NCBI RefSeq assembly: GCF_002209355.2
Contig: NZ_CP106855.1
Span: 1,488,001-1,552,000 of the forward strand
Source: Bdellovibrio sp. SKB1291214
GTDB lineage: Bacteria > Bdellovibrionota > Bdellovibrionia > Bdellovibrionales > Bdellovibrionaceae
Reading direction: 5' to 3'
DNA: 64,000 nucleotides
The translations under genes were made by a program, and so were the position numbers. The first letter of the stretch is position 1. Each line of letters starts with the position of its first letter. This document shows positions 35,376-48,321 of this stretch, piece by piece. The notes under the pieces were generated by a model that saw only the letters and a list, made by a program, of their open reading frames with translations, did no database searches and was not told the origin of the DNA.

Positions 35376-35891
35376 ATGGCACTTAAAGAACAGATGGTCC
35401 CTTTCCTTACTAAAGAAGAAATTGCTGAGTTGGTTGCTGATTTGGCAAAACAAATCGAGCACGATTACGAAGGGAAAGAGATCGTATTTATCTGCCCATT
35501 GCGTGGTTCGATGCACATCACTGCAGACTTAATGAGACAAGTGGATCTTCCTCAGCAAGTGGATTTCGTTTACGTTCAGGCAGTTGAGCGTGGTGGCGCG
35601 ATCAAGATCGTTAAAGATATTTCTGTGAACATCGCCGGCAAACACGTATTGATCGTTGAAGAAATCATCGATACAGGTCGCACTTTGAGCTTCCTAAGAA
35701 GCCGCTTATTCGCATCCGCTCCGGCATCTTTGAAAATCATCACTCTGCTTGATAAGCCCGCTCGTCGCGAACTGCCAATCAAAGCAGACTATATTGGTAA
35801 AACTATTGATGACCGTTATGTAGTTGGCTACGGAATGGATTCAGAGGAAGTTGGAAGAAACTATCCTGATATCTATACGATGAAAAACTAG
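35376..35891 (+). CDS. hpt: Hypoxanthine phosphoribosyltransferase
   Basis: This 171-residue purine salvage enzyme carries the PRPP-binding motif VLIVEEIIDTGRTLSFL (an Asp/Glu variant of the usual VEDIIDTG), a PLRGSMHIT loop and KADYIGKTIDDRYVVGYGMD near the end. It converts hypoxanthine or guanine to nucleotides. Salvage of prey purines would suit a predator, but that is inference. It is the last gene of the bamD operon. Confidence 0.92.
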   Translation: MALKEQMVPFLTKEEIAELVADLAKQIEHDYEGKEIVFICPLRGSMHITADLMRQVDLPQQVDFVYVQAVERGGAIKIVKDISVNIAGKHVLIVEEIIDTGRTLSFLRSRLFASAPASLKIITLLDKPARRELPIKADYIGKTIDDRYVVGYGMDSEEVGRNYPDIYTMKN

Positions 35892-35902
35892 TTTGTCTTA
35901 AA

Positions 35903-35977
35903 TTAAGACACGACGACGTTTACGACGAAAAATACAACGACACAAAATACGTACAAATAAACCATCTGTTTTTGCAT
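35903..35977 (-). CDS. Candidate 24-residue hydrophobic micropeptide
   Basis: A reading frame MQKQMVYLYVFCVVVFFVVN (first 20 residues) ending VVVS gives a single membrane helix with a short polar start. AGGAG sits six bases upstream of the ATG, a near-ideal ribosome binding site, and the site is partly inside a CCTAAA/TTTAGG hairpin (35986-36003). The frame is too short for standard gene callers. It lies alone in the 220-base gap between hpt and the chemoreceptor gene. Single-helix micropeptides often regulate membrane complexes or act as type I toxins. Confidence 0.5.
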   Translation of the reverse strand: MQKQMVYLYVFCVVVFFVVNVVVS

Positions 35978-36112
35978 GGAAGGCTCCTAAAAACGAATTT
36001 AGGGGTCTTTAGGACCTAGGTCAACTTGTCCATAACTGATTTTTGAGGTCTTCGTGAGAACTGGACCTTAGCGCTCCTGTTAAAAAACCGACAAAATACC
36101 TCGGAGGACGAA

Positions 36113-37600
36113 ATGTCTAAGCTTTCTCTGAAGGGTCGCTTTTTATTTATCACAGCATTGCTTACATTGATTTGCTTGCTGACCAATGTTTTTTCACTCT
36201 TTGAATTGAAGAGTCAGAATACTGTCACCTCTGAAATTGCTGAAACGTGGCTTCCGATCGTAGGAAAAACCGCCGATATCAACATCAATGTCGTTAACTA
36301 TAGAAAACTAGAATTCAATTTGTTGGCGACTCAAAGCACAGACGAAAGAAAACTTGTGATGGATGAGATGGATTCCCTGATGGGTAACATCACCATTTAT
36401 TCCAAAGTGCTGGATCCTCTTATAACGACCGACAATCTTCGCAAATTTTACGACGATTTTTTAAAGTCGTGGGAAAACTATCAAGCCGAAAGCGATAAAT
36501 TTAAAGCGGCATTGGACAAAGAAGATACGGCGTTGGCAGAAAAAATTCTGCAGGATAGCTCTGCTAAATATTATGACGAAGCCTATAAGTCTCTGAAAGC
36601 CCTTACTGATGAGAGTTACATGGTGGGTATTAATAAATCTGAAGCAGCTGCAAAGCTATTCAAGATTACTTTCTATGCGATTATCGGCGTCACCACTTTC
36701 TTTGTCTTGTTGGGCTTAATCACAAGTATTTTAAACATTCGCAGCGTTCAAAATTCCTTACGTGGAGTTGCTGACGGCCTGGATTCAAGTGCACAGATTG
36801 TTGAAAGTCGCACGCAAGGTCTGGTGAAATCCAGCGACTCTATTTCAAGCAACACAACAAGCACAGCTGCTGCACTTGAAGAAATCGTGGCGACCATGGA
36901 AGACTTAAGTCAAACCGTGCGCAAGAATTCCGATAGCTCAAATCAAGCGGCTCAAATCTCCAAAGACGGGCAAGAAGCCGTTTCTCATGGCCAAAATAAA
37001 ATTCATTCTTTGATCACTGTGATGTCAGAAATTTCTACGAATTCCAAAAAAATCACAGAAATCTTAGATATGATCGACGACATTGCTTTTCAAACTAATT
37101 TGTTAGCTCTCAATGCAGCAGTTGAAGCGGCCCGTGCTGGTGAACAAGGTAAAGGTTTTGCTGTTGTTGCTGACGCCGTTCGCGCCCTTGCACAAAAAAG
37201 TGCTGAAGCTGCAAAAGAAATTTCAGGACTGATCAACGAAGCTAACACCAAAAGCCAGATGGGTGTTGAGTTGGCAGCTGACAGTGAAAAATCCTTAAAA
37301 GCGATTGTTGAAAATACCAATCGCGTGTTCCAATTAATTCAAGAAGTAGCACAAGGTTCCCAAGAGCAATCTCACGGTATCGATCAAGTCAAAACAGCTT
37401 TGACATCAATCGATGAAAGTTTGCAAGGCGTCGCTGCATCCATGGGTAACGTCACAAGCGCCTCTGAAGATATGCAATCTCAAGCTCAGGAACTTGGCGT
37501 TATGATGTCTCAGCTTCACGTCTTGGTGGGCGAGAAAAACAAAACTACAACAGAAGAAATACAAAATAATACGGAAGACGCGTCGTCTTCCGCTGCTTAA
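36113..37600 (+). CDS. Methyl-accepting chemotaxis protein
   Basis: This 495-residue receptor has membrane helices at about residues 10-32 and 183-207 flanking a helical periplasmic sensor domain of the four-helix-bundle type. A long cytoplasmic coiled coil follows with the hairpin tip [39 protein letters not shown], diagnostic of receptors that engage CheA/CheW. There is no CheR-binding pentapeptide at the end. GGAGG precedes the ATG. A sequence resembling a sigma-28 promoter (ACCGACAA near 36089) lies just upstream. Confidence 0.92.
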
Positions 37601-37614
37601 ACAGGAGAACTGCA

Positions 37615-37926
37615 ATGATGAAGACAGCATTGATGACAACGGTTGCAACTTTGATGGTAGCTCAAGCCGCTTTTGCCGGTGATTGCGTTATTTCAGTAGA
37701 TCGCAAAGCTTGTCCGGGTAAAGAAACTGAAGCGATGAAGCCTTATAACGGAAAAAATCCAACAGAAGAGACTAAAAAACTAGACTCTGCAGAAGCTTGC
37801 GAAAAATGGGCTGAGAAAACGTCTAAAATCGTTCGCAAAGGCACTCTGACGGAAAAGAAAGTTTCCGTCAAATTTGATGGCAAAGATTTAGGCAAGTCAT
37901 TTTCTGACAAAGCTGAGTGTAAATAA
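37615..37926 (+). CDS. Small secreted protein behind the chemoreceptor
   Basis: This 103-residue protein has a signal peptide ending AFA (about residue 21). The mature part is charged and contains four Cys (GDC, KAC, AEAC, AEC), probably two disulfides. I recognise no family. AGGAG precedes the ATG, and the gene lies 14 bases after the receptor gene, so cotranscription is likely. A binding-protein role for the receptor is possible but unsupported. Confidence 0.75.
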   Translation: MMKTALMTTVATLMVAQAAFAGDCVISVDRKACPGKETEAMKPYNGKNPTEETKKLDSAEACEKWAEKTSKIVRKGTLTEKKVSVKFDGKDLGKSFSDKAECK

Positions 37927-37947
37927 TCTCGACAGCCAATTCTTATT

Positions 37948-37976
37948 AAAAGGGAGGTCCTGTACCTCCCTTTTTC
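37948..37976 (+). terminator. Rho-independent terminator
   Basis: AAAGGGAGGT and ACCTCCCTTT form a ten-base stem with a five-base loop, followed by Ts. It separates the receptor unit from the pilus cluster. Confidence 0.85.
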
Positions 37977-38042
37977 TCATTCTGATACAGGACTAATTTC
38001 CCACAAAGTGTATTGAAAACTCTCAAGACAATCCCCAAATGA

Positions 38043-38050
38043 GCCGATAT
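38043..38050 (+). promoter_or_regulatory. Sigma-28-like -10 element upstream of flp
   Basis: GCCGATAT matches the sigma-28 (FliA) -10 consensus GCCGATAA at seven of eight bases and lies 24 bases before the flp start. The -35 region is weak. FliA drives many attack-phase genes in Bdellovibrio (general knowledge), which fits a pilin gene. Confidence 0.5.
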
Positions 38051-38073
38051 GGAAGGTACAAGGGGGAACATCA

Positions 38074-38262
38074 ATGAAGAAGTTTAAGAACTTTTCTAAA
38101 AAATTTTTGAAAAACGAACGCGGTCAAGGTGCGACAGAATACATCCTTTTGTTGGTTGTCGTGGTTGGTCTTGTGATGATTTTCAAAGATAAAATTCAAA
38201 CTACGGTTAAAGACAAAATCAGCTCTCTTTCAAGCGATATCACAGGCGTTACTTCTCAATAG
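38074..38262 (+). CDS. flp: Flp-type pilin
   Basis: This 62-residue pilin has a basic leader ending NERG, then QGATEYILLLVVVVGLVMIF, the Flp hydrophobic core with the conserved Glu at mature position 5 and the neighbouring Tyr. Prepilin peptidase would cut after the Gly. The product polymerises into the Tad/Flp pilus. AAGGGGG precedes the ATG. It leads the pilus cluster that follows. No prepilin peptidase gene is in the window. Confidence 0.92.
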   Translation: MKKFKNFSKKFLKNERGQGATEYILLLVVVVGLVMIFKDKIQTTVKDKISSLSSDITGVTSQ

Positions 38263-38286
38263 TTTGAGATATAGAGCGGAGCTTGC

Positions 38287-38475
38287 GTGACGATTGAATA
38301 CGTCTTGCTGATGATTGCAATTCTCGGGATTGGGCTGAAAGCATTTATTTCAGCTCCCTCCGAAGCTTTTCGTGGATCAGGTCCACGATTGGCTGCACGC
38401 GTGGAAAAGCAATTGGATACAGGACAAGGCTTCAAGCCAAAGGGCTCTCGTAATGAATGGAGTGCTTTGAAATGA
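38287..38475 (+). CDS. Flp/TadE-like protein without a leader
   Basis: This 62-residue protein begins directly with MTIEYVLLMIAILGIGLKAF, which looks like a mature Flp/pseudopilin helix (Glu and Tyr as in flp), but lacks any basic leader or processing Gly. A stop codon in frame at 38272 rules out a longer start. GTG start with GGAG upstream. The C-terminal half is basic. It may be a pilus accessory subunit that escapes prepilin processing. Confidence 0.7.
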   Translation: MTIEYVLLMIAILGIGLKAFISAPSEAFRGSGPRLAARVEKQLDTGQGFKPKGSRNEWSALK

Positions 38476-38729
38476 AGAAGTCACTCGTCGCTAACCGAAA
38501 AGGCCAATTCGTGATCGAAGCCGTTTTGCTGATGATCGTGATGCTTGGAATTTTTATGGCGAGCATGAGCCAGCTTCGTGAGTCGAAATTTTTGGCAAAG
38601 ATGATTACCGGTCCATGGGACAAAGTTGCTGGAATGATGGAGAGTGGAGTTTGGCTGTCTGCTAAGGATGCTCGCCAAAAACACCCTAACCAGAAAGACC
38701 GCAGCATTTCCCTGAACCCAAATGAATAA
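38472..38729 (+). CDS. TadE/pseudopilin-like protein
   Basis: This 85-residue protein starts with a basic leader MKKSLVANRKG followed by QFVIEAVLLMIVMLGIFMA, with a Gly processing site and Glu at mature position 5. It therefore resembles a type IV pseudopilin. The ATG overlaps the preceding TGA as ATGA and has GGAG upstream. An earlier frame start at 38457 is less likely. It is probably a minor pilus component. Confidence 0.75.
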   Translation: MKKSLVANRKGQFVIEAVLLMIVMLGIFMASMSQLRESKFLAKMITGPWDKVAGMMESGVWLSAKDARQKHPNQKDRSISLNPNE

Positions 38730-39387
38730 TAACCCTGAGGCCGCAATGAGAACATTATCGAGCCCTCACATGATCATAAATAATTCCCACGGTTTGATAA
38801 CTGTGGATTTTATATTTTCATTGATCTTGTGCGCGGGTCTTTGCGCAGTAATGTTCGTCATGACCTTTACTTTATCGATGGCTGAAATTGCTCAGTACAT
38901 CACTTTCGCCTCATCCCGCGCCTATGTTGCGGGTCACGTAGACCCAGATAAGCAAACCGAAATGGGTCGCAATAAGTTTTCAAATTTAATGTCAAACAAT
39001 GTCCTTAGCCCTCTTTTCTCTACGTCAGGCACATCTTGGTTTACTTTATCAAACCTTGAGTTGCGTGGCGGTGGCGCTAGTGGCAAAGACTTTGCCGAAG
39101 ACTATCCTTATGTTGATGACCGCATCCCGCAAACGGGAGCACGTCTAACATTCGGAGCGCGAGTGCTTGCTTTAAGAATCGCATTCTTGGGGCGCACCAC
39201 TGAAGATGGCGAAGCTCCAACAGCAAAATTAACTGCATTTCTAATTCGCGAACCGACCCAACAGGAATGTTGGGATCTTCAGGTTAAAAAACGCTACGAT
39301 GCGATTATGAACCTGGACAGTCGCTTTGCAATACTTGCAGATCGATATCGAAACAAATACGTACCCATGGAGGATAACGGATGTTGA
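38722..39387 (+). CDS. TadE/TadF-like membrane protein
   Basis: This protein of up to 221 residues has the leader-like NNSHG then LITVDFIFSLILCAGLCAVM, a pseudopilin-type helix with Asp in place of Glu. A periplasmic domain follows with three late Cys-containing or charged segments. The ATG at 38722 overlaps the previous stop; ATG 38746, five bases after GAGG, is the alternative start. The position suggests a Tad minor pilin. Confidence 0.7.
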   Translation: MNNNPEAAMRTLSSPHMIINNSHGLITVDFIFSLILCAGLCAVMFVMTFTLSMAEIAQYITFASSRAYVAGHVDPDKQTEMGRNKFSNLMSNNVLSPLFSTSGTSWFTLSNLELRGGGASGKDFAEDYPYVDDRIPQTGARLTFGARVLALRIAFLGRTTEDGEAPTAKLTAFLIREPTQQECWDLQVKKRYDAIMNLDSRFAILADRYRNKYVPMEDNGC

Positions 39388-39887
39388 AATCCAAAAAAAG
39401 CCTCCTAAACAATGAAGATGGCACTGCAATGATCGAGGTCCTCCCGGTCATTTTCGTCATTATTACGTTCCTGACTTTTTCATTGGGATTCTTTGGCGCG
39501 ATTCACTCAGGAATTTTAAATTCAATCGCTGCCAGAAACTATGCCTTTGAAACATTTAGACATCGCTCGAACCTGGTTTACTTCCGTAGTAACGGAGACG
39601 TGTCCACTGCACAACTCGCATATAACGAGATGGGTTTGCGTATTCACGGTGTGAACTCCGAGGACTCTCCTAAATCAGGAGACCCTAAATGGTATTCTTC
39701 TACTCGTCCAATCAACATCATGATTTTGGCGAGCCAGAAGGAAGTTGATCAATCCGGCTCTAAGAGTGAGCACAATCAACAAGTTCCTTTTATAAAAGAT
39801 GAAGAACGAAACGAACGAGTAGGCGTGAACCCCATTTGGATTAAATCACAATACGGGATTTGTCTGAATGCAGCTTGTGGAGCGTAG
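39381..39887 (+). CDS. TadE-like protein
   Basis: This 168-residue protein has leader MLKSKKSLLNNEDG and then TAMIEVLPVIFVIITFLTF, including the Glu-5 of TadE/pseudopilins. The remainder is periplasmic, with two Cys near the end. It overlaps the previous gene by seven bases and ends eight bases before cpaB. It is a likely minor pilin or pilus assembly factor. Confidence 0.75.
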   Translation: MLKSKKSLLNNEDGTAMIEVLPVIFVIITFLTFSLGFFGAIHSGILNSIAARNYAFETFRHRSNLVYFRSNGDVSTAQLAYNEMGLRIHGVNSEDSPKSGDPKWYSSTRPINIMILASQKEVDQSGSKSEHNQQVPFIKDEERNERVGVNPIWIKSQYGICLNAACGA

Positions 39888-39895
39888 GAGAAGAT

Positions 39896-40816
39896 ATGGG
39901 ATCAAACGACACTAGAAATTTATGGCTTTCAATTGCAGCGGGAATCTTCGCCACATTCTTGCTTTATAGCTATTCGCAAGAAAAGAAAGCTGAATACGAC
40001 AAGCGATTTGGTTCTACAAAACGTGTCGTCGTTGCCAAAGAAGACATCGCTGAAATGCAAACTGTCTATGACACGATGGTTGAAACGAAAGATATGCCTG
40101 CTGATTTTATTCAGCCAGACACAGTTACGATTCCTGATGAGATCATCGGTAACGTAGCTGCCGTACCTATTCGTAAAGGCCAAATGATCGTAAAGAATAA
40201 CCTTCTAACGCCAGGCCCTGACACAGGTATCGCCTTGCAAGTAGCACCCAGTAAGCGTGCAGTTGCGATTCCTGTTGATGAAATCCGTGGTGTCGCAAAG
40301 CTCATCCGTCCTGGTGACCGCGTGGATATCTATGCTGCTGTGGACTCGGGTAAAGGCGTGCAACAGCGTCGTGAGGTATTCACTTTGATGAGTGACGTTC
40401 CAGTTCTGGCAACGGGTTTAAGTGTTGTAAATAACATTCCTCGTATGTTTGAGCTTGATTCATCTGGTAAGAATCTAAATCAGATCGCTCTGACTGGTGA
40501 TACAAAATATACGACGATCACAGTTGAAGCGACGCCGAAAGAGGCACAAGACTTATTCTATATTTTATCAACAGCGCCGGGAAATTTATTCTTTGCGCTT
40601 AGAAATCCAAGTGACCGTACAATTCCTGTAAGAGCACCTAGCTCGACATCAGATACAGTCCTTGGCAGACCGATGGTATCTTTGGATGCAGCTCCGGCAG
40701 TGCCAGCAGCGCCTCCAGTAGTATTACCACAGCAACAACAACGAATGATGCAACCAATGCAGCAACGAGCACCGCAACCGACGCAACAACGTAGGAACGG
40801 CTTTAAGACCTTGTAG
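39896..40816 (+). CDS. cpaB: CpaB/RcpC pilus assembly protein
   Basis: This 306-residue protein has one N-terminal membrane helix (about residues 9-26) and a SAF domain (VVVAKEDIAEMQTVYDTMVE, then IRKGQMIVKNNLL) followed by an RcpC domain with PVDEIRGVAKLIRPGDRVDIY. The Gln/Pro/Met-rich tail beyond 270 is low complexity. It acts in the periplasm with the secretin. ATG 39896 has AGGAG six bases upstream and is preferred to the earlier start at 39860. Confidence 0.9.
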   Translation: MGSNDTRNLWLSIAAGIFATFLLYSYSQEKKAEYDKRFGSTKRVVVAKEDIAEMQTVYDTMVETKDMPADFIQPDTVTIPDEIIGNVAAVPIRKGQMIVKNNLLTPGPDTGIALQVAPSKRAVAIPVDEIRGVAKLIRPGDRVDIYAAVDSGKGVQQRREVFTLMSDVPVLATGLSVVNNIPRMFELDSSGKNLNQIALTGDTKYTTITVEATPKEAQDLFYILSTAPGNLFFALRNPSDRTIPVRAPSSTSDTVLGRPMVSLDAAPAVPAAPPVVLPQQQQRMMQPMQQRAPQPTQQRRNGFKTL

Positions 40817-40860
40817 TATTGAGTTCTTTGTTTTGGGGAATTGTTAGTTAAGGGGGAACC

Positions 40861-42384
40861 ATGAAATATATGCTGCTTACACTGGGGCTTGTATTAAGTC
40901 TTTGTGGACATGTTGCGCATGCAGAAGACGATCTATCTGCAACTCCGTCATCGTCCAGCGAAGACAGCAGTGGCGCTTTCCGCTCGCGCAAATTCATCAA
41001 CTTGACGTTGGGAATTGAGCAAGATGAAAAGCTCCCTCCTCTTCCAGATAACGTGGATTTCAAAGGTGACTTCCGCCGTGTCGTCACTGCCAACTATTCT
41101 AAAGACCTTAACGTGATTCGCTTCGTACCGAAATCAGAAGGTTTCGCGACGCTAACGATCCATGATAAACGCAATGGTAAAATCGTTGCGGAGTATCGTA
41201 TTGACGTTAAGAAAAGCAAACTTGATAAGATCGTTCGTGAAATGCGATCTTTGTTGGGTGATATCGAAGGTATCAATATCAAGATCGTAAATGATAGAGT
41301 TGTAGTCGACGGTCAAATCCTACTCCCTAAGGATATGGCGCGTATCTATAACGTGGTATCTCAATTCGGTAACCAAGCTTCTTCAATTGTGACATTAAGC
41401 CCCCTTGCACAAAAGAAGATCGCAGAGTTCATCGCTCGTGATATCAACAATCCAGAAATCGAAGTTCGCGCCGTGAATGACAAAATCATCCTGCAAGGCT
41501 GGGCAAACAGCGCCGACGAATCTGCTCGTGCAGAGATCATTGCTAAAACATATCTGCCCGCTCGTATCGTGGATGCGGCCGCAGAAAAAGGCGTGATTGT
41601 TGAACGTAAGGCAGCAAATGATGGCGTTATCAACCTTATCCAAATTAAAGAATCGGCACCAAAGCCACCTCCAAAGATGATCCAACTTGTAGTTCACTAC
41701 GTTGAATTGCAAAAAGACTACTCTAAGAACTTTAAGTTCCAGTTCACTCCAGAGTTGGGCGATAATTCGCAAATGACTTTCCAAACTGGAGGCGAAGCTG
41801 CTGGTGGTATCGTAAGTTCAATCACAGGAACAGTTTCAAACTTGCTCCCGAAATTGAACTGGGCAAAACAGCACGGTCAAGCACGCGTTCTTGAAAGTAC
41901 AAGTATGATCGTTGAGGATGGTAAAAAAGGTGAAATCAAACAGATCACCAACCAACCCTATGCAGTTATCGGTCAGAATGGTACTCAAGGTACTGCTTTT
42001 GCCGAAGTCGGTATCGTGACGACGATTACGCCGGTTCTTATGGGTGAAAAGTCTGGTTCTGTACGCATGGACATGGCTTTTAAAGTGTCTTCTATGATCG
42101 GCAGTACTTCTGCGGGTGCTCCTATCACCAGCTCAAATGAAATGACAAGCTCGGTGGTAGTGCGTGACCGTCAAAGTGCGGCTGTGGGTGGTCTAATCCG
42201 CAACTCATCATCGACTGGATACAACCGTCCTTCTGGACAAAAAAATCCAATCATCAGCTTGTATGCTTCTAAAGACTTCGCAAAACAACAATCTCAGTTT
42301 GTGGTTTTCGTCACTCCAGTTGTTAAGACTTCAGCAAGTGCTGGATCTGAACAAATTAAGAAAAAATTCCGTCTGCGCGACTAA
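40861..42384 (+). CDS. cpaC: CpaC/RcpA outer-membrane secretin
   Basis: This 507-residue protein has a signal peptide (about residues 1-21). An N-terminal pilus/secretin domain follows, including KFINLTLGIEQDEKLPPLP and a BON-like GINIKIVNDRVVVDGQI. The secretin C-domain has KLNWAKQHGQARVLESTSMI, TTITPVLMGEKSG and SSVVVRDRQSAAVGGLI. It forms the outer-membrane ring through which Flp pili leave. Length is normal. The tail is short and basic. Confidence 0.92.
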   Translation: MKYMLLTLGLVLSLCGHVAHAEDDLSATPSSSSEDSSGAFRSRKFINLTLGIEQDEKLPPLPDNVDFKGDFRRVVTANYSKDLNVIRFVPKSEGFATLTIHDKRNGKIVAEYRIDVKKSKLDKIVREMRSLLGDIEGINIKIVNDRVVVDGQILLPKDMARIYNVVSQFGNQASSIVTLSPLAQKKIAEFIARDINNPEIEVRAVNDKIILQGWANSADESARAEIIAKTYLPARIVDAAAEKGVIVERKAANDGVINLIQIKESAPKPPPKMIQLVVHYVELQKDYSKNFKFQFTPELGDNSQMTFQTGGEAAGGIVSSITGTVSNLLPKLNWAKQHGQARVLESTSMIVEDGKKGEIKQITNQPYAVIGQNGTQGTAFAEVGIVTTITPVLMGEKSGSVRMDMAFKVSSMIGSTSAGAPITSSNEMTSSVVVRDRQSAAVGGLIRNSSSTGYNRPSGQKNPIISLYASKDFAKQQSQFVVFVTPVVKTSASAGSEQIKKKFRLRD

Positions 42385-42391
42385 CGTCGCG

Positions 42392-42419
42392 TAAACGGAT
42401 TGATCATAGAAGCCGATAT
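42392..42419 (+). promoter_or_regulatory. Sigma-28-like promoter before the cpaE-cpaF gene
   Basis: TAAA (42392) and GCCGATAT (42412) are separated by 16 bases, one more than the usual 15. The -10 ends 18 bases before the TTG start. It would allow the ATPase and platform genes to be expressed apart from the pilin genes. Confidence 0.45.
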
Positions 42420-42437
42420 GTTAAGCGGAGGTCCGCA

Positions 42438-44642
42438 TTGGCTATCAATCCGAATTGTAATCTCATCGCTGTAGTTGGTGGTAAAGGGGGCGTAGGTAAA
42501 AGCGTCTTCGCCGCTAACTTTGCTTGCGCATTGATGACCGAGCTACGTACTCAGGTTTTACTTGTCGACGCCGATTCAAAATCTGTGGGCGATCAAAATG
42601 TGATTATGGGTCTTAAACCTGTAAAAACTTTGAAAGAACTTTCCACGTTCACAGGCTCTCTAAATTCTCAACCAATGAACACGCTTGTGACAATGGCCCC
42701 ATCTGGTTTGGGCTATGTCGGCGCCGTTCGTGGCCCTGAGGAACAATTAAATATCTCTCCTGATCTTCTTGGTAAGTTGATGGAGTTTTTCTCTCGAGCA
42801 TTTAAGTTTGTGATCGTTGACGTGGGTAACGACCTGGGTCCCGCACAAATGGCGGTTCTTCAAGAAGCCACTGCCATCATGATCGTGACGACTCCTGAGG
42901 TTCTGGTTGTGACTCAAACACAAAGACTTGTGAATGAGCTTTTATCAGCCACATTCCCTAAAGACATGTTCCAACTTGTGGTGAATAAGGCTTCGCCAAC
43001 GGGTTTATCTCCGCAAGCAATTTCTAATCAATTGCAGTTGCCATTTTTAGGAATCATTCCACAAGACGAAGCAACAACCAACATGGCTTTGCAAAAATAC
43101 CAACCCTTCGTTATCAGTGCGCCTAAAACGCCACTGACGGCGTCGTACTATGACCTTTCACGTAAACTAACTGGTGGTATTTTACAGCGTCTAAAAACTT
43201 TGTCTCGTCCCAAACCAGCTCCGGCTTCTAACGAAGCCAGTGCTCCGATTCCGGGAGCCAATGGTATGGACCCTCGCACACTTTTAAAAATCCGTGTGCA
43301 TAATGAATTGATCCGTACCGTTGATCTAAAAAAACTTCTAGTCGATACCGGCAAGGATGAGAATAAAGAAAAAGAAGTTCGCGAAAAAACCAAACGCGAA
43401 ATCACTGTTATCGTCGACAAAGAAGCTCCAGACACTCCTCGTGAAGAACGCTCTAAAATCATCAAAGAGGTTTTAGAAGAGGCCTTGGGCTTGGGTCCTT
43501 TGGAGGATTTGCTAGCCGATCCAGCTGTGACAGAGATCATGGTTAACGGCTTTAAGAAAATCTTTGTGGAAAAATCCGGTAAAGTTGCATTAAGTCCTGT
43601 GACATTCACTTCGAATGATCATTTACGTCGTATTATCGAGCGTATCGTGACACCCCTGGGTCGTCAGATCAATGATTCGACACCGTACGTGGATGCCCGT
43701 TTGAAAGACGGTTCTCGTGTTAACGCAGTTATTGAACCACTTTCAATTGATGGACCTGCGCTGACAATTCGTAAGTTTAAAAAAGGCGGTATCACCGCTG
43801 AAAAGTATATTGAATACGGAAGTATCACTAAAAACATGATCGACTTCCTTCGTATCTGCGTCGAGAACGGCTTAAACGTTGTTATCTCAGGTGGTACGGG
43901 TTCAGGTAAAACATCCCTGTTAAATATGCTTTCTTCGTATATCCCTTCCAATGAACGCGTCATCACTGTCGAGGACGCGGCCGAGTTACAATTGCAACAG
44001 GAGCACGTGGTACGTCTTGAGACTCGCCCGGCTTCCATGGAAGGTACAAACGCGATTCATATCCGCGACCTTATTAAGAATGCCCTGCGTATGCGTCCTG
44101 ATCGCATCATCGTGGGTGAGTGCCGTGACGGCGCTGCCTTAGATATGTTACAAGCCATGAACACAGGTCATGATGGTTCTATGACTACGACTCACGCCAA
44201 CAGCGCGCGTGAGTGTATTGCTCGTCTAGAAACTCTTTCAATGATGGCTGGTATGGATCTTCCAGTTCGCGCGATCCGCGAACAAATTGCTGGAGCTGTG
44301 AACTTGATCGTTCAGATCTCTCGTCAATCCGATGGTAGCCGTAAAATCATGAGCATCACGGAAGTGGCTGGTATGCAAGGTGACGTGGTTACTTTGGCAG
44401 AGATCTTCCGCTTTAAAGAAACTGGTTACGATAAGAATCGCAAAATTCAAGGTGTCTTCCAAGCAACAGGTACCATCCCAAGCTTCATTCAAAAATTGAG
44501 TGATAAAGGCGTCGTGATTCCTCGTGAAATTTTCAGTAACGACCCAGCTGCTGCTGCGAAACCTGCAGCTCCATCACCCGCTCAAGGTGGTTTAATGCCT
44601 AAAATGCCAGGCGGAGTCGTTCCTCCTAAGAAGGTCGGGTAA
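42438..44642 (+). CDS. CpaE-CpaF fusion: ParA-like domain joined to the pilus secretion ATPase
   Basis: This 734-residue protein joins two normally separate Tad proteins. Residues about 1-265 are a ParA/MinD-like ATPase (GGKGGVGKS at 14-22, [18 protein letters not shown]), which matches CpaE/TadZ without its receiver-like N-domain. After a Pro/Ala linker, residues about 275-700 are CpaF/Tad[21 protein letters not shown], Walker [11 protein letters not shown] near 485, [22 protein letters not shown] and TTTHANS. A single protein should couple polar localisation to pilus assembly. The start is TTG with GGAGGT six bases upstream. The tail is Pro/Gly/Met rich. The frame is continuous. Confidence 0.92.
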
Positions 44643-44645
44643 TCT

Positions 44646-45521
44646 ATGAAGTTTCTAGCAAACGAATGGATTCTGATTCCTCTGTTTGGTATTTGCGTAT
44701 TTACGTTTGTCATCCTTTGGGCTGATAAGTCCATTGCTTGGCTTCATAAACGCAGCTTAGGCCAACGTGAAGAAGTCATTCGAATCATGCGTTTGATGGG
44801 AATGGAAACTGACCAAAAGAAAATCACGATCTTAATTCTTTTGTTAAGCTTCGGTCTTGGTGCTTTGGTTTTTTTAGCGTTTTGGCCAAGTGTGATTGTC
44901 GGTGCGGTCTTTGGCTGCTCTATTACTATCGCAGGATGGCAGCTTCCTCTTTTGATTGTGCGTTTTCTGTATGAAAGACGTTGTACAGTTTTCGTAGATC
45001 AGATGGTTGACGGTATTACCATCATGGCAAACGGAATCAAAGCGGGTTCAAATCCGCAGGAATCCATGAAGCGTGTTGTAGAAATCATGGGAAATCCTAT
45101 CAGCCAAGAGTTCTCTCAAGTGCTTTACCAAATGCAAGTTGGGGATAGCTTTGAAAGCGCATTGAATGACTTAGGAAATCGGATTCCCCGTCCAGACGTC
45201 CAGATGTTTGTGACCTCCATCAATATCTTAAAAGAAACTGGTGGTAACTTGGCGGAGACTTTCCAGACCATAGTCACGGTCATTCGAGAAAGACAAAAAG
45301 TTGAAAAGAAAATTCAAGCACTGACTGCACAAGGCATGATGCAAGGGATAATCGTTACTTTGGTTCCCTTCTTTTTGTTGGGTGTTTTTGCGGTAATTGA
45401 TCCCACATTCATCAAGCCTATGTTTACAACCACCTTAGGTCTAGTGTTGCTGTTTGCCATGCTAGCTCTGCAAATTATCGGTGGTGTCCTCATCAAAAAA
45501 CTTGTTACTATCAAAGTGTAG
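44646..45521 (+). CDS. tadB: TadB-like pilus platform protein
   Basis: This 291-residue inner-membrane protein has N-terminal helices and a GspF/TadB domain. DQMVDGITIMANGIKAGSNPQESM begins it, and FVTSINILKETGGNLAETF is the conserved GspF motif. C-terminal helices complete the platform. It works with the CpaF ATPase. Tad systems usually carry a second platform gene, tadC, directly downstream; here the next gene is the YD-repeat protein instead. Confidence 0.87.
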   Translation: MKFLANEWILIPLFGICVFTFVILWADKSIAWLHKRSLGQREEVIRIMRLMGMETDQKKITILILLLSFGLGALVFLAFWPSVIVGAVFGCSITIAGWQLPLLIVRFLYERRCTVFVDQMVDGITIMANGIKAGSNPQESMKRVVEIMGNPISQEFSQVLYQMQVGDSFESALNDLGNRIPRPDVQMFVTSINILKETGGNLAETFQTIVTVIRERQKVEKKIQALTAQGMMQGIIVTLVPFFLLGVFAVIDPTFIKPMFTTTLGLVLLFAMLALQIIGGVLIKKLVTIKV

Positions 45522-45551
45522 TCCGTCAGTTTCAGGGAAGAGGTAAACATA

Positions 45552-47204
45552 ATGAAGAAGGCACTTATTGCAGTGGCTATTCTTTTCTCGGCACAGGCGC
45601 ATGCTCTTGTCGACATGAAGAATGCCAACTATTCCAATACGTGGATCGATATGGACGTACCAGGTACCGGGTACGATCTAAAAATTATCAGAACTTACAA
45701 TAGCCGTTCACTTTTTAACGGAATGTTTGGTTTCGGATGGTGTTCTGATTTCGAAACCAGCATGGAAGTTAATGGTGAAGGTAATATCAAAGTTAAAGAG
45801 TGCGGCGGCGGCATGGAGATCACATTCTCTCCTCGCGAAGTAACTCGTAAAGACGTTGATAACACGATTAATGCGATCATCGGTAAGATGAAAGCAGAAA
45901 AAAAGGTCGGCGTTACAGATTCGTACCTTACTTCTCTTAAATCTCAATTGCTTGAAGACGACAACGCACGTGCCGAATTCGCCAGAAAATATGGCATTAA
46001 CGTCGCTGTTAAAGAAGGCACTAAGTTTTTTGCAAACGGTCGAGAAGTCGAGAACTTCACCTTTAATAAAACTTACTACACTCGTACGCTTCCAGATGGA
46101 AGTTCTCAGCGCTTTAGCCCCCAAGGAAAACTGACTCATATCTATGACAAGAACGGTAACTTCTTGAAATTTGAATATGATAAAGACCTTGTTGCTAAGA
46201 TCGAAGACAACAATGGTCGTCGTTTGGCTTTCAAATACTACCAAAATAAAAAAGTAAAACAAATCACGGGTCCGAACGGTTTAAACGTAGATTATAAATT
46301 TGCGAACCTTGACGACTTGGCTTCCGTTAAGAATGCTTGGCAAAAAACTTATTCTTACGAATACGATGACCTGCACAATCTGACAAAGGCTTCTTGGCCC
46401 GATAAGACTTTTGTTGCAGTTAAGTATGATAAAAAGAACGACTGGGTCACTTCATTCACTGACCGTGATAAATGTACAGAGTCTTATAAATACGAATTCT
46501 CGCAAAGCGAGCCGCAAAACCACTATTGGTCTACGGTTAAAAAAGTTTGTGGCAAAGAAACTGTTGCGGATAATAAGTACGAGTTCTGGCACAAACAACG
46601 CGCTGACGGTCAAATGTTCCTTCAACGTGTAATGACGACGGTAAACGGCAACGTAACTGACATCAGCTATCACGAGCTTTTCGGTAAGCCGACAAGCATT
46701 CGCAGAAATGCGGAACGCATCTCTTACGAATACTATGCTGATGGTTTGGTAAAAGTTAAAGCGACACCGGCCACTCGTATGGCCTTTGAATATGATCCAT
46801 CGATTAAGAAAGTAAGCCAAGTTTCCACGACGTTCTTTAACCAAAAAGGTCAAAAGGTAACGGCGAAAGCAACTCAGTTTAAATACGATGGCAAGGGCAA
46901 CCTTAATTTCGCACAGAACTCTGATGGTCAAAAGATCTCTATGACCTATGATAATCGTGGAAGAATTGCCACGATCACTGATCAAGCGAAAAAAGTTGTT
47001 AAAATCGAGTACGAAGAACGCTATGGTAAGCCCGCGATCGTGACTCGTCCTGGTTTGGGCACTATTCAGGTTTCTTACAAAACTAATGGTGAAATCAACA
47101 AGGTAGATTCAAAAGAAGGTCCTTCGGTGGCAATGCAAGTGGCCTCCACATTCAATAACTTGCTCGACATTATCGCGCCTGCAACTGCAGAGCTATATCT
47201 CTAA
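45552..47204 (+). CDS. Secreted YD/Rhs-repeat protein, Bd0109-like by position
   Basis: This 550-residue protein has a signal peptide ending AHA (about residue 19). The N-terminal RTYNSRSLFNGMFGFGWCSDF matches the start domain of Rhs/YD wall-associated proteins. Repeats such as YDKNGNFLKFEYDKDLVAKI, YEYDDLHNLTKASWPD, YDGKGNLNFAQNSDGQ and YDNRGRIATITDQ follow. No toxin-type C-terminal domain is present; it ends shortly after the repeats. Its location between tadB and a tiny secreted protein matches bd0109 of the hit locus. A role in sensing or gating pilus retraction has been proposed for those proteins. Confidence 0.8.
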   Translation: MKKALIAVAILFSAQAHALVDMKNANYSNTWIDMDVPGTGYDLKIIRTYNSRSLFNGMFGFGWCSDFETSMEVNGEGNIKVKECGGGMEITFSPREVTRKDVDNTINAIIGKMKAEKKVGVTDSYLTSLKSQLLEDDNARAEFARKYGINVAVKEGTKFFANGREVENFTFNKTYYTRTLPDGSSQRFSPQGKLTHIYDKNGNFLKFEYDKDLVAKIEDNNGRRLAFKYYQNKKVKQITGPNGLNVDYKFANLDDLASVKNAWQKTYSYEYDDLHNLTKASWPDKTFVAVKYDKKNDWVTSFTDRDKCTESYKYEFSQSEPQNHYWSTVKKVCGKETVADNKYEFWHKQRADGQMFLQRVMTTVNGNVTDISYHELFGKPTSIRRNAERISYEYYADGLVKVKATPATRMAFEYDPSIKKVSQVSTTFFNQKGQKVTAKATQFKYDGKGNLNFAQNSDGQKISMTYDNRGRIATITDQAKKVVKIEYEERYGKPAIVTRPGLGTIQVSYKTNGEINKVDSKEGPSVAMQVASTFNNLLDIIAPATAELYL

Positions 47205-47212
47205 GGAGAGAT
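47197..47212 (+). promoter_or_regulatory. Hairpin holding the ribosome binding site of the hit-like gene
   Basis: ATCTCT-AAGG-AGAGAT is a perfect six-base stem. The AAGGAG Shine-Dalgarno sequence forms the loop and the right arm. It lies five bases after the stop-proximal codons of the YD-protein gene and would need opening for translation of the 47217 gene. Confidence 0.5.
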
Positions 47213-47216
47213 CGTT

Positions 47217-47498
47217 ATGAAGAATATCTTGTTATTGGCAGTAATTGCACTGATCGGAACTGCGGCTCACGCACAAAGCGCACCGGGCGCTGCCAGCGAT
47301 GCAAAGAACGACCAAGAGGCTCGCACTACTCAGTCTGAAACGACTGGCAGAGCGGTTGAAATCGGATGCCCTGGGGGCGGATGCCTTAAGCATTTGTCAG
47401 AGGCCGGAATCTTAGACAAAACCGCAGCTCAGCCTAGATCTGGTGGCAGTGGCAGCTCAGGCTCCGAAACTTCACAAGGACAAGGCGGCGCTCAATAA
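47217..47498 (+). CDS. Small secreted hit-locus-like protein (Bd0108 position)
   Basis: This 93-residue protein has a signal peptide ending AHA (about residue 19) and a mature part rich in Gly, Ser, Gln and Ala, probably disordered. It contains a Cys pair (GCPGGGCLKH) and the motif AGILDKTAAQ. It sits 12 bases after the YD-repeat gene, as bd0108 sits next to bd0109 in B. bacteriovorus, where loss-of-function changes allow prey-independent growth. Sequence similarity to Bd0108 could not be tested here; the call rests on position, size and composition. Its ribosome binding site is in a hairpin. Confidence 0.7.
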   Translation: MKNILLLAVIALIGTAAHAQSAPGAASDAKNDQEARTTQSETTGRAVEIGCPGGGCLKHLSEAGILDKTAAQPRSGGSGSSGSETSQGQGGAQ

Positions 47499-47531: not shown

Positions 47532-47563
47532 CAAAAAGGCTCTCTGCACAGAGGGCCTTTTTT
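47532..47563 (+). terminator. Rho-independent terminator after the pilus/hit cluster
   Basis: AAAAAGGC pairs with GCCTTTTT around an imperfect inner stem (CTCT.../...AGAG) and the right arm runs into Ts. Confidence 0.75.
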
Positions 47564-47654
47564 ATTTTGCGCCCCTAACCCATAAACCCTTGATATCACA
47601 AAGCTTCCATATCACTTCGAAACAGCCTTTCTGGCATACCCACTGCAATAGTTC

Positions 47655-47691: not shown

Positions 47692-47889
47692 ATGAAAGCT
47701 ATTAAAATCATGATGGTGGTTGCTATTGCGGCAACAGCTTCTATTTCTTCCGCAGGAACGCCGGGCTCTACAGCGTGCAACGCTCGCAAGAATGTCGGTA
47801 TCCTTGATAATACATCTGCAGGTCATACAGCCGCTGCTAAAGCACCAGCTCCTTCTACCGCTGTTAAAGCCAACAAAGGTGCGAACTAA
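47692..47889 (+). CDS. 65-residue secreted peptide related to the hit-like protein
   Basis: It has a signal peptide (about residues 1-21, ending SSA) and then a 44-residue mature part, GTPGSTACNARKNVGILDNT in its first 20 residues, followed by an Ala/Pro/Lys tail. The stretch C-x6-GILDNTSA matches C-x7-GILDKTAA of the protein at 47217. The single Cys could form a dimer or bind a partner. AAAGGAG precedes the ATG and is partly hidden in a hairpin. No family is recognised. Confidence 0.75.
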   Translation: MKAIKIMMVVAIAATASISSAGTPGSTACNARKNVGILDNTSAGHTAAAKAPAPSTAVKANKGAN

Positions 47890-48022: not shown

Positions 48023-48131
48023 GTCTCATTGTGAGATTTGGATTTTGTAAGTAGTTGATTCTTCGAGACTGAATTCTCAGTCTGATTCATCTTCTTTGGC
48101 ATGTTGGATGCATTAGAGGTAAGTATCCAAC
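48023..48131 (+). promoter_or_regulatory. 5' region with three inverted repeats before the 57-residue peptide gene
   Basis: In order: TCTCATTGTGAGA (48025-48037), a palindrome like others in the window; AGACTGA/TCAGTCT (48066-48083); and GTTGGAT/ATCCAAC (48103-48131), a hairpin eight bases before the ribosome binding site. No clear sigma-28 or sigma-70 box is seen. Confidence 0.35.
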
Positions 48132-48147: not shown

Positions 48148-48321
48148 ATGAAAGCAATCATCGCAGCAGCAGTAATCTTCGCAGTATCTTCTACATCTTT
48201 CGCAGCAACTGGTTCTTGCGGTTCACGCTCTTCTGGTTCTCTTTTCAAAAAAACAGCTGCAACAACTTCAAACATCGTTGCAACTACAAAACAAGTTACA
48301 GCTACAAAAGCAGTTCGCTAA
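48148..48321 (+). CDS. 57-residue secreted peptide, third member of the small-peptide set
   Basis: This short frame has a signal peptide (MKAIIAAAVIFAVSSTSFAA) and a mature part beginning TGSCGSRSSGSLFKKTAATT, then Thr/Lys/Val rich to the end. C-x5-GSLFKKTAA aligns with C-x7-GILDKTAA and C-x6-GILDNTSA of the two upstream peptides. GGAG lies five bases before the ATG. It is too short for most gene callers. Its stop abuts the stop of the minus-strand gene. Confidence 0.72.
   Translation: MKAIIAAAVIFAVSSTSFAATGSCGSRSSGSLFKKTAATTSNIVATTKQVTATKAVR

Follow-up and report, generated by a model that had tools for sequence, protein, structure and literature searches.

A divergent hit locus in Bdellovibrio sp. 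SKB1291214 carries further small secreted genes behind predicted sigma54-type promoters

Introduction

The host-interaction (hit) locus of Bdellovibrio strain HD100 encodes a secreted, disordered protein, Bd0108, that binds the secreted protein Bd0109 and sets pilus extrusion and retraction; Bd0108 restrains growth outside prey, and its loss permits prey-free growth (PMC3818213, PMC4267844). Mutation of bd0108 gives host-independent growth, which is reversed by complementation (PMC3818213, PMC11323537). NMR data place the Bd0109-binding segment of HD100 Bd0108 at residues 24-66, with attention drawn to the conservation of residues 32-40 (PMC4267844). FliA reportedly regulates the Tad operon, and predation requires its pilins flp1, flp2 and flp4 (PMC5430801). 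One lead on how the status of Bd0108 reaches the growth programme was a small RNA at HD100 positions 96455-96716, documented by RNA-seq and RT-PCR, described as non-coding and raised in bd0108 mutants (PMC3818213). A further study describes strain SKB1291214 as lacking Bd0108, reads a "174-bp insertion" in this strain as possible gene transfer, and reports that HD100 carries a hypothetical gene from re-annotation, BD_RS00505, located between bd0108 and bd0103 (PMC5941755).

Here we analyzed a 64,000-nucleotide stretch of the complete 3,681,188-bp genome of strain SKB1291214 (positions 1488001-1552000, hereafter the window; coordinates are those of the window unless another genome is named). 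The hit locus is already known, and the locus in the window is a new, divergent member.

Results

The window carries an orthologous hit locus

Every gene listed in the initial annotation, from the flp pilin to a 93-aa protein that we term ORF1, was found in the order given there (Table 1). The region 35376-47204 is collinear with HD100 positions 109121-97194, with 52-88% identity across the Tad-operon and YD proteins. In the comparison with HD100 that the initial annotation had proposed, the Tad operon and the YD gene followed the same order as bd0109-bd0119 (PMC3818213, PMC4267844, PMC5430801). Identity to the HD100 counterparts is 52-78% in the pilin block (38074..39887; flp, the flp2-like pilin and the minor-pilin-like ORFs) and 82-88% for cpaB, cpaC, cpaE-cpaF and tadB. 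As in HD100, a FliA-type promoter stands ahead of flp; the box has one mismatch relative to the attack-phase consensus TTAAG-N16-CCGATA (PMC3627812), and its presence fits the FliA regulation described for this operon (PMC5430801). Between a chemoreceptor gene and flp, we also noted a gene for a 103-aa secreted Cys-containing protein (37615-37926), which shows 71% identity in HD100 and has no NCBIfam family.

Table 1. Features of the hit locus, in window coordinates
Feature	Position	Strand	Basis
FliA-type promoter TCAAG-N16-CCGATA	38023..38049	+	read from sequence, ahead of flp
flp pilin	38074-38262	+	Pfam Flp1_like, E 2.7e-12
Short flp2-like pilin	38287-38475	+	Pfam; collinear with HD100
Three minor-pilin-like ORFs	38457-38729, 38722-39387, 39381-39887	+	Pfam; collinear with HD100
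cpaB	39860-40816	+	identity to collinear HD100 gene
cpaC	40861-42384	+	identity to collinear HD100 gene
Fused cpaE-cpaF, single 734-aa ORF	42438-44642	+	Pfam CbiA/ParA and T2SSE
tadB	44646-45521	+	Pfam T2SSF
YD/RHS protein, Bd0109 orthologue, 550 aa	45552-47204	+	Pfam RHS_repeat, E 3.1e-13; DUF6531, E 4.8e-9
ORF1, divergent Bd0108 orthologue, 93 aa	47217-47498	+	synteny; out-of-clade HMM; NCBIfam hit_Bd0108 below cut-off
9-bp direct repeat GCAGCTCAG	47424-47432, 47452-47460	+	28 bp apart; predicted site of frame-shifting deletion
Intrinsic terminator closing the Tad-Bd0109-Bd0108 transcript	47533..47562	+	fold z -3.7
ORF2 -24/-12 promoter TGGCATACCCACTGCAAT, predicted sigma54-type	47632..47649	+	site in 25/25 ORF2 loci
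ORF2, 65-aa small secreted Cys protein	47692-47889	+	profile; synteny; codon-position bias
Hairpin behind ORF2, C-rich loop	47899-47967	+	fold z -3.7; 7/12 stem pairs with compensatory changes
ORF3 inverted repeat AGACTGAATTCTCAGTCT	48066-48083	+	read upstream of ORF3 promoter
ORF3 promoter TGGCATGTTGGATGCA, predicted sigma54-type	48097-48112	+	site in 7/7 ORF3 loci
ORF3, 57-aa small secreted Cys protein, 174 bp including stop	48148-48321	+	tandem paralogue of ORF2

HD100 Bd0109 (locus L028) and the YD protein of the window are both 550 aa long and share 82% identity. The YD gene of L028 is followed by a gene for a 101-aa protein ending in RRHDDTVSREIKGSSATPGGSEKAGTGRQ, the Bd0108 C-terminus printed in PMC3818213. 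In the window a small secreted protein, ORF1, likewise lies directly behind the YD gene, its start 12 bases past the YD stop codon. A small secreted ORF was found at this position in the examined loci that include the YD 3´ end, and none directly behind the YD genes of two distant paralogous loci (L036 and L037). The YD gene itself was present in 24/24 genomes of the genus searched (76-100% identity) and in 62 of 66 genomes of the family, with all 20 sampled genera represented. Together, the synteny and the profile matches given below exclude a lack of homology or synteny to bd0108 and bd0109, and support the view that the window holds the hit locus of a different Bdellovibrio species, orthologous to that of HD100. 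The initial annotation had proposed an equivalent of the switch between predatory and independent growth; orthology to the hit locus stands on synteny, YD identity and the HMM match, and a role as growth switch in this strain is what we infer from it.

The YD protein carries a Sec signal peptide, a DUF6531 domain and RHS repeats, without a protease or toxin domain. Its AF2 model had a mean pLDDT of 74 and a pTM of 0.50, with residues 1-66 unreliable (pLDDT <50), and the best PDB matches found by Foldseek were RHS shells (E 6e-22, low TM-scores). Among these matches are shells from T6SS effectors and from ABC toxins (e.g., PDB 8qjd and 4igl), with which the window protein has the RHS repeats in common; in contrast to them, it is shorter, has neither of the two domain types, and is a stand-alone secreted protein tied to a pilus operon. 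The model supports the RHS class but not closure of the shell, and is consistent with, without proving, a ligand-holding role. RHS shells commonly enclose cargo and the best matches are effector shells, so the small secreted proteins might instead be Tad-pilus effectors or adhesion peptides carried by the RHS protein, with host independence a side effect of pilus state. The requirement of the flp pilins for predation and the fast evolution of the small proteins would fit such a role. However, the host-independent growth of bd0108 mutants and its reversal by complementation (PMC3818213, PMC11323537) argue against it, as does the poor N-terminal part of the YD model, and we regard it as rather unlikely.

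Two further small secreted genes lie behind predicted sigma54-type promoters

Downstream of ORF1 we found two more small secreted genes, ORF2 and ORF3, that the initial annotation had missed. A profile search detected ORF2 at this position in 24/24 Bdellovibrio genomes. An ORF2 profile trained without the window retrieved ORF3 (E 1.8e-8), and hhalign comparison (E 1.1e-11) marked the two as clear paralogues. ORF3 is found in tandem with ORF2 in the window and six relatives, and several other genomes carry a second paralogue elsewhere, as at HD100 407445-407618, where the match is weak (E 0.003) and a TGGCAC-N7-GC site is present. ORF1 and ORF2 also aligned in hhalign, over the full length (hhalign 86%, E 4.8e-6) and over the mature parts (hhalign 59%), where the profile score of 23.8 was reached in 0/300 column shuffles (maximum 15.6); a Cys...GILDxT segment and a C-terminal Gly-x-x are common to both. 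This relation is modest and weak in absolute terms but non-random, and marks the ORF2 product as a distant relative of Bd0108. The profile comparison of ORF1 with ORF3 was not significant.

The sequence TGGCAY-N7-GC precedes 25/25 ORF2 and 7/7 ORF3 genes, 51-86 bases before the start codon (shuffles, 8/5000). These sites match the -24 GG/-12 GC signature, are correctly spaced and keep their position from locus to locus, and are predicted to be sigma54-type promoters; RpoN is encoded in both genomes tested. In 16/25 loci from other genera, a small secreted ORF in a comparable place follows the same promoter type (1/1000 among shuffled sequences; 0/25 for the reversed pattern), with protein sequences that have widely diverged.

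A palindrome related to GTCTCANNNTGAGAC is fixed 8 bp upstream of the -24 element in many ORF2 and ORF3 loci. The window copies are degenerate, the one ahead of ORF2 lying at 47609-47623, 8 bp upstream of the promoter. Exact GTCTCANNNTGAGAC occurs 14-25 times per genome in the six Bdellovibrio genomes searched (e.g., G000:C1:1294522-1294536) and the reversed pattern 0 times. The palindrome may act as a dedicated enhancer, but most of its genomic copies are away from sigma54 sites. At two loci (L118, G000:C1:1294522, and L096, HD100 631453) the palindrome is followed after ~7 bp by TGGYAT-N7-GC ahead of unrelated secreted-protein genes, which may belong to this regulon as well.

The published hit-locus sRNA is very probably an mRNA

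The HD100 orthologue of ORF2 (96483-96683, minus strand), at the same position as in the window, falls wholly within the coordinates of the published sRNA, for which the published data give no strand, and both published RT primers (96555-96652) map within it. Between close relatives, changes in ORF2 at codon positions 1, 2 and 3 numbered 25, 14 and 91 (p 4e-18). In five independent pairs pooled, 88.5 synonymous and 41.5 non-synonymous changes were counted (P 3e-26); one single pair had 15 synonymous and 0 non-synonymous changes, and HD100 versus L031 had 15 and 3. Indels are in frame, and the start codon, ribosome site and signal peptide are conserved. The third-position bias indicates constraint at the protein level, that is, purifying selection on ORF2, instead of the absence of coding constraint expected of a non-coding sRNA. 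The published sRNA is thus very probably the mRNA for a second small secreted protein, of 66 aa in HD100, behind a predicted sigma54-type promoter. The -24/-12 element of this promoter is at HD100 96741-96758, and the transcript is predicted to begin ~12 bases downstream of the -12 GC. We found no protein-level evidence for ORF2 or ORF3.

The hairpin behind ORF2 may be a terminator or, possibly, a regulatory RNA that pairs with ribosome sites. A transcript that is under coding constraint and also carries a covarying hairpin with a C-rich loop would suit a dual-function RNA that encodes a small secreted protein and also base-pairs with targets through its 3´ end. However, a terminator explains the hairpin equally well, and the structure is absent or different in L016, L027, L029, L032 and L033; we regard a dual function as rather unlikely. 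Less probable still is the published reading, in which a genuine regulatory sRNA is made behind bd0108 and the ORF is incidental or secondary. In its favor are the description of the RNA as non-coding, which followed RNA-seq and RT-PCR work (PMC3818213), and the hairpin behind the ORF, which shows compensatory changes and has a conserved C-rich loop of a type able to pair with ribosome-binding sites. Against it stand the codon-position bias, the in-frame indels, the conserved start, ribosome site and signal peptide, and the presence of the ORF in 24/24 genomes, as well as an ORF that persists across the family behind the same promoter type while its sequence has diverged. In an Rfam search of the window and the hit region only tRNAs scored above the gathering score, and the merRNA of PMC3627812 was dropped as a candidate at this locus given that no c-di-GMP riboswitch was found.

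The gene BD_RS00505, reported in the same place between bd0108 and bd0103, is most likely HD100 ORF2, and the "174-bp insertion" appears to be ORF3, which is exactly 174 bp including the stop. In its accessible part, PMC5941755 ties neither of them to the sRNA, Bd0108 or sigma54. We found no re-reading of the sRNA as coding in open-access papers; within that literature, both this reading and the conserved sigma54-driven third gene appear to be new.

ORF1 is a divergent Bd0108 orthologue

ORF1 encodes a signal peptide, a CPGGGC motif and a Gly/Ser-rich tail. Pairwise BLASTP against HD100 Bd0108 gave no match at E 0.01, and profiles were therefore needed. With a Bd0108-family HMM whose training excluded the window and its two nearest relatives, ORF1 ranked first of 384 window ORFs (E 4.6e-10, residues 1-92 aligned). 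The NCBIfam equivalog model NF053838 (hit_Bd0108) matched residues 1-90 (E 6.2e-9), at 36.2 bits against a curated cut-off of 40 bits, and we do not claim ORF1 as a member of that equivalog family.

Two HD100 features are missing from ORF1. The NPGEDPNEA box, which in HD100 falls inside the Bd0109-binding segment at the stretch of residues 32-40, has no counterpart, as the NPGxDPNE box is absent from the window protein and from those of the nearest relatives, L012 and L013. These two and the window form one supported clade (96/88) that is boxless throughout; the L012 protein scored only 12.6 bits with NCBIfam hit_Bd0108. The sister locus L014 (89% YD identity) keeps NPGSDPADE and scored 108 bits with the same model. 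In place of the CXXC motif, which all 23 other orthologues in the tree possess, ORF1 has CX4C; in strain W the CXXC region of Bd0108 is poorly conserved (PMC4267844). Lacking the Bd0109-binding box and the CXXC motif and scoring below the cut-off, ORF1 may form part of a switch that works differently or is weakened here. The least probable of the readings that we weighed, and a very improbable one, is that ORF1 has no homology to Bd0108 and has taken its position in a lineage that lost the Bd0108 switch, as the published claim of Bd0108 absence, the failed pairwise match, the lost motifs and the boxless, low-scoring relatives might suggest, but the out-of-clade HMM result, the box and score of the sister L014 and the same position and length all point to orthology.

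In HD100 the hotspot for a 42-bp deletion is a 10-bp repeat, CAAAGGCTCC, whose copies are exactly 42 bp apart. This repeat is absent from the window, where ORF1 instead contains the GCAGCTCAG copies, at a spacing of 28 bp, so that slippage between them would shift the frame. At another locus, L027, the bd0108 orthologue stops after 65 aa, apparently through a frameshift, with NPGEDPNEA kept; this case can be likened to strain W, whose Bd0108 homologue is without the C-terminal region (PMC4267844).

Discussion

Our favored reading, which we consider likely, is that the window holds an orthologous hit locus with a third component, namely Bd0108-like secreted peptides from sigma54-type promoters, that had so far gone unrecognized. 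One module is the Tad operon, predicted to be transcribed from the FliA-type promoter to the terminator and ending in Bd0109-type RHS and Bd0108-type proteins; the other comprises one or two small secreted proteins that resemble Bd0108 and have separate predicted sigma54-type promoters, with ORF2 and ORF3 in tandem behind ORF1 in the window in distinction to HD100. Sequence comparison underpins the anatomy, orthology and synteny of the locus, the purifying selection on ORF2, the conservation of the promoters and the distant relation of ORF1 and ORF2. Beyond this, loss or an altered state of the Bd0108-Bd0109-pilus complex would be sensed by a sigma54 activator, which would then induce the ORF2 and ORF3 peptides; these would reach the compartment that the complex occupies and there bind to, or compete on, Bd0109 or the pilus, as feedback on the switch. 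We hypothesize that the ORF2 protein is a second ligand of Bd0109. A bolder extension, which we consider less likely than not, is a three-part hit switch across many genera of predatory Bdellovibrionaceae, in which an RHS shell, the disordered ligand Bd0108, made together with the Tad proteins, and ORF2 as a second ligand induced through sigma54 would act together, with ligand exchange on the shell reporting pilus or prey state and deciding between attack and growth.

A genome that appears to be B. exovorus-like (G043) has two YD loci, L162 and L163. Behind the YD copy with 60% identity come a Cys-free protein that has a GEDPN box and a second gene with a sigma54 site; behind the copy with 37% identity comes a CxxC protein, without such a second gene. 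PMC4267844 favored the other YD copy, not the one resembling the Tad-linked gene, as the hit locus. The copy that matches the Tad-linked one, with its GEDPN box and sigma54 gene, offers a different candidate assignment.

Claims that Bd0108 is absent from divergent strains may reflect fast sequence evolution, and the claimed foreign 174-bp insertion may reflect a tandem paralogue. If the RNA that is raised in bd0108 mutants encodes a secreted, Bd0108-like peptide under sigma54 control that is conserved across the family, the way in which Bd0108 status is signalled to growth would become directly testable with single point mutants in HD100.
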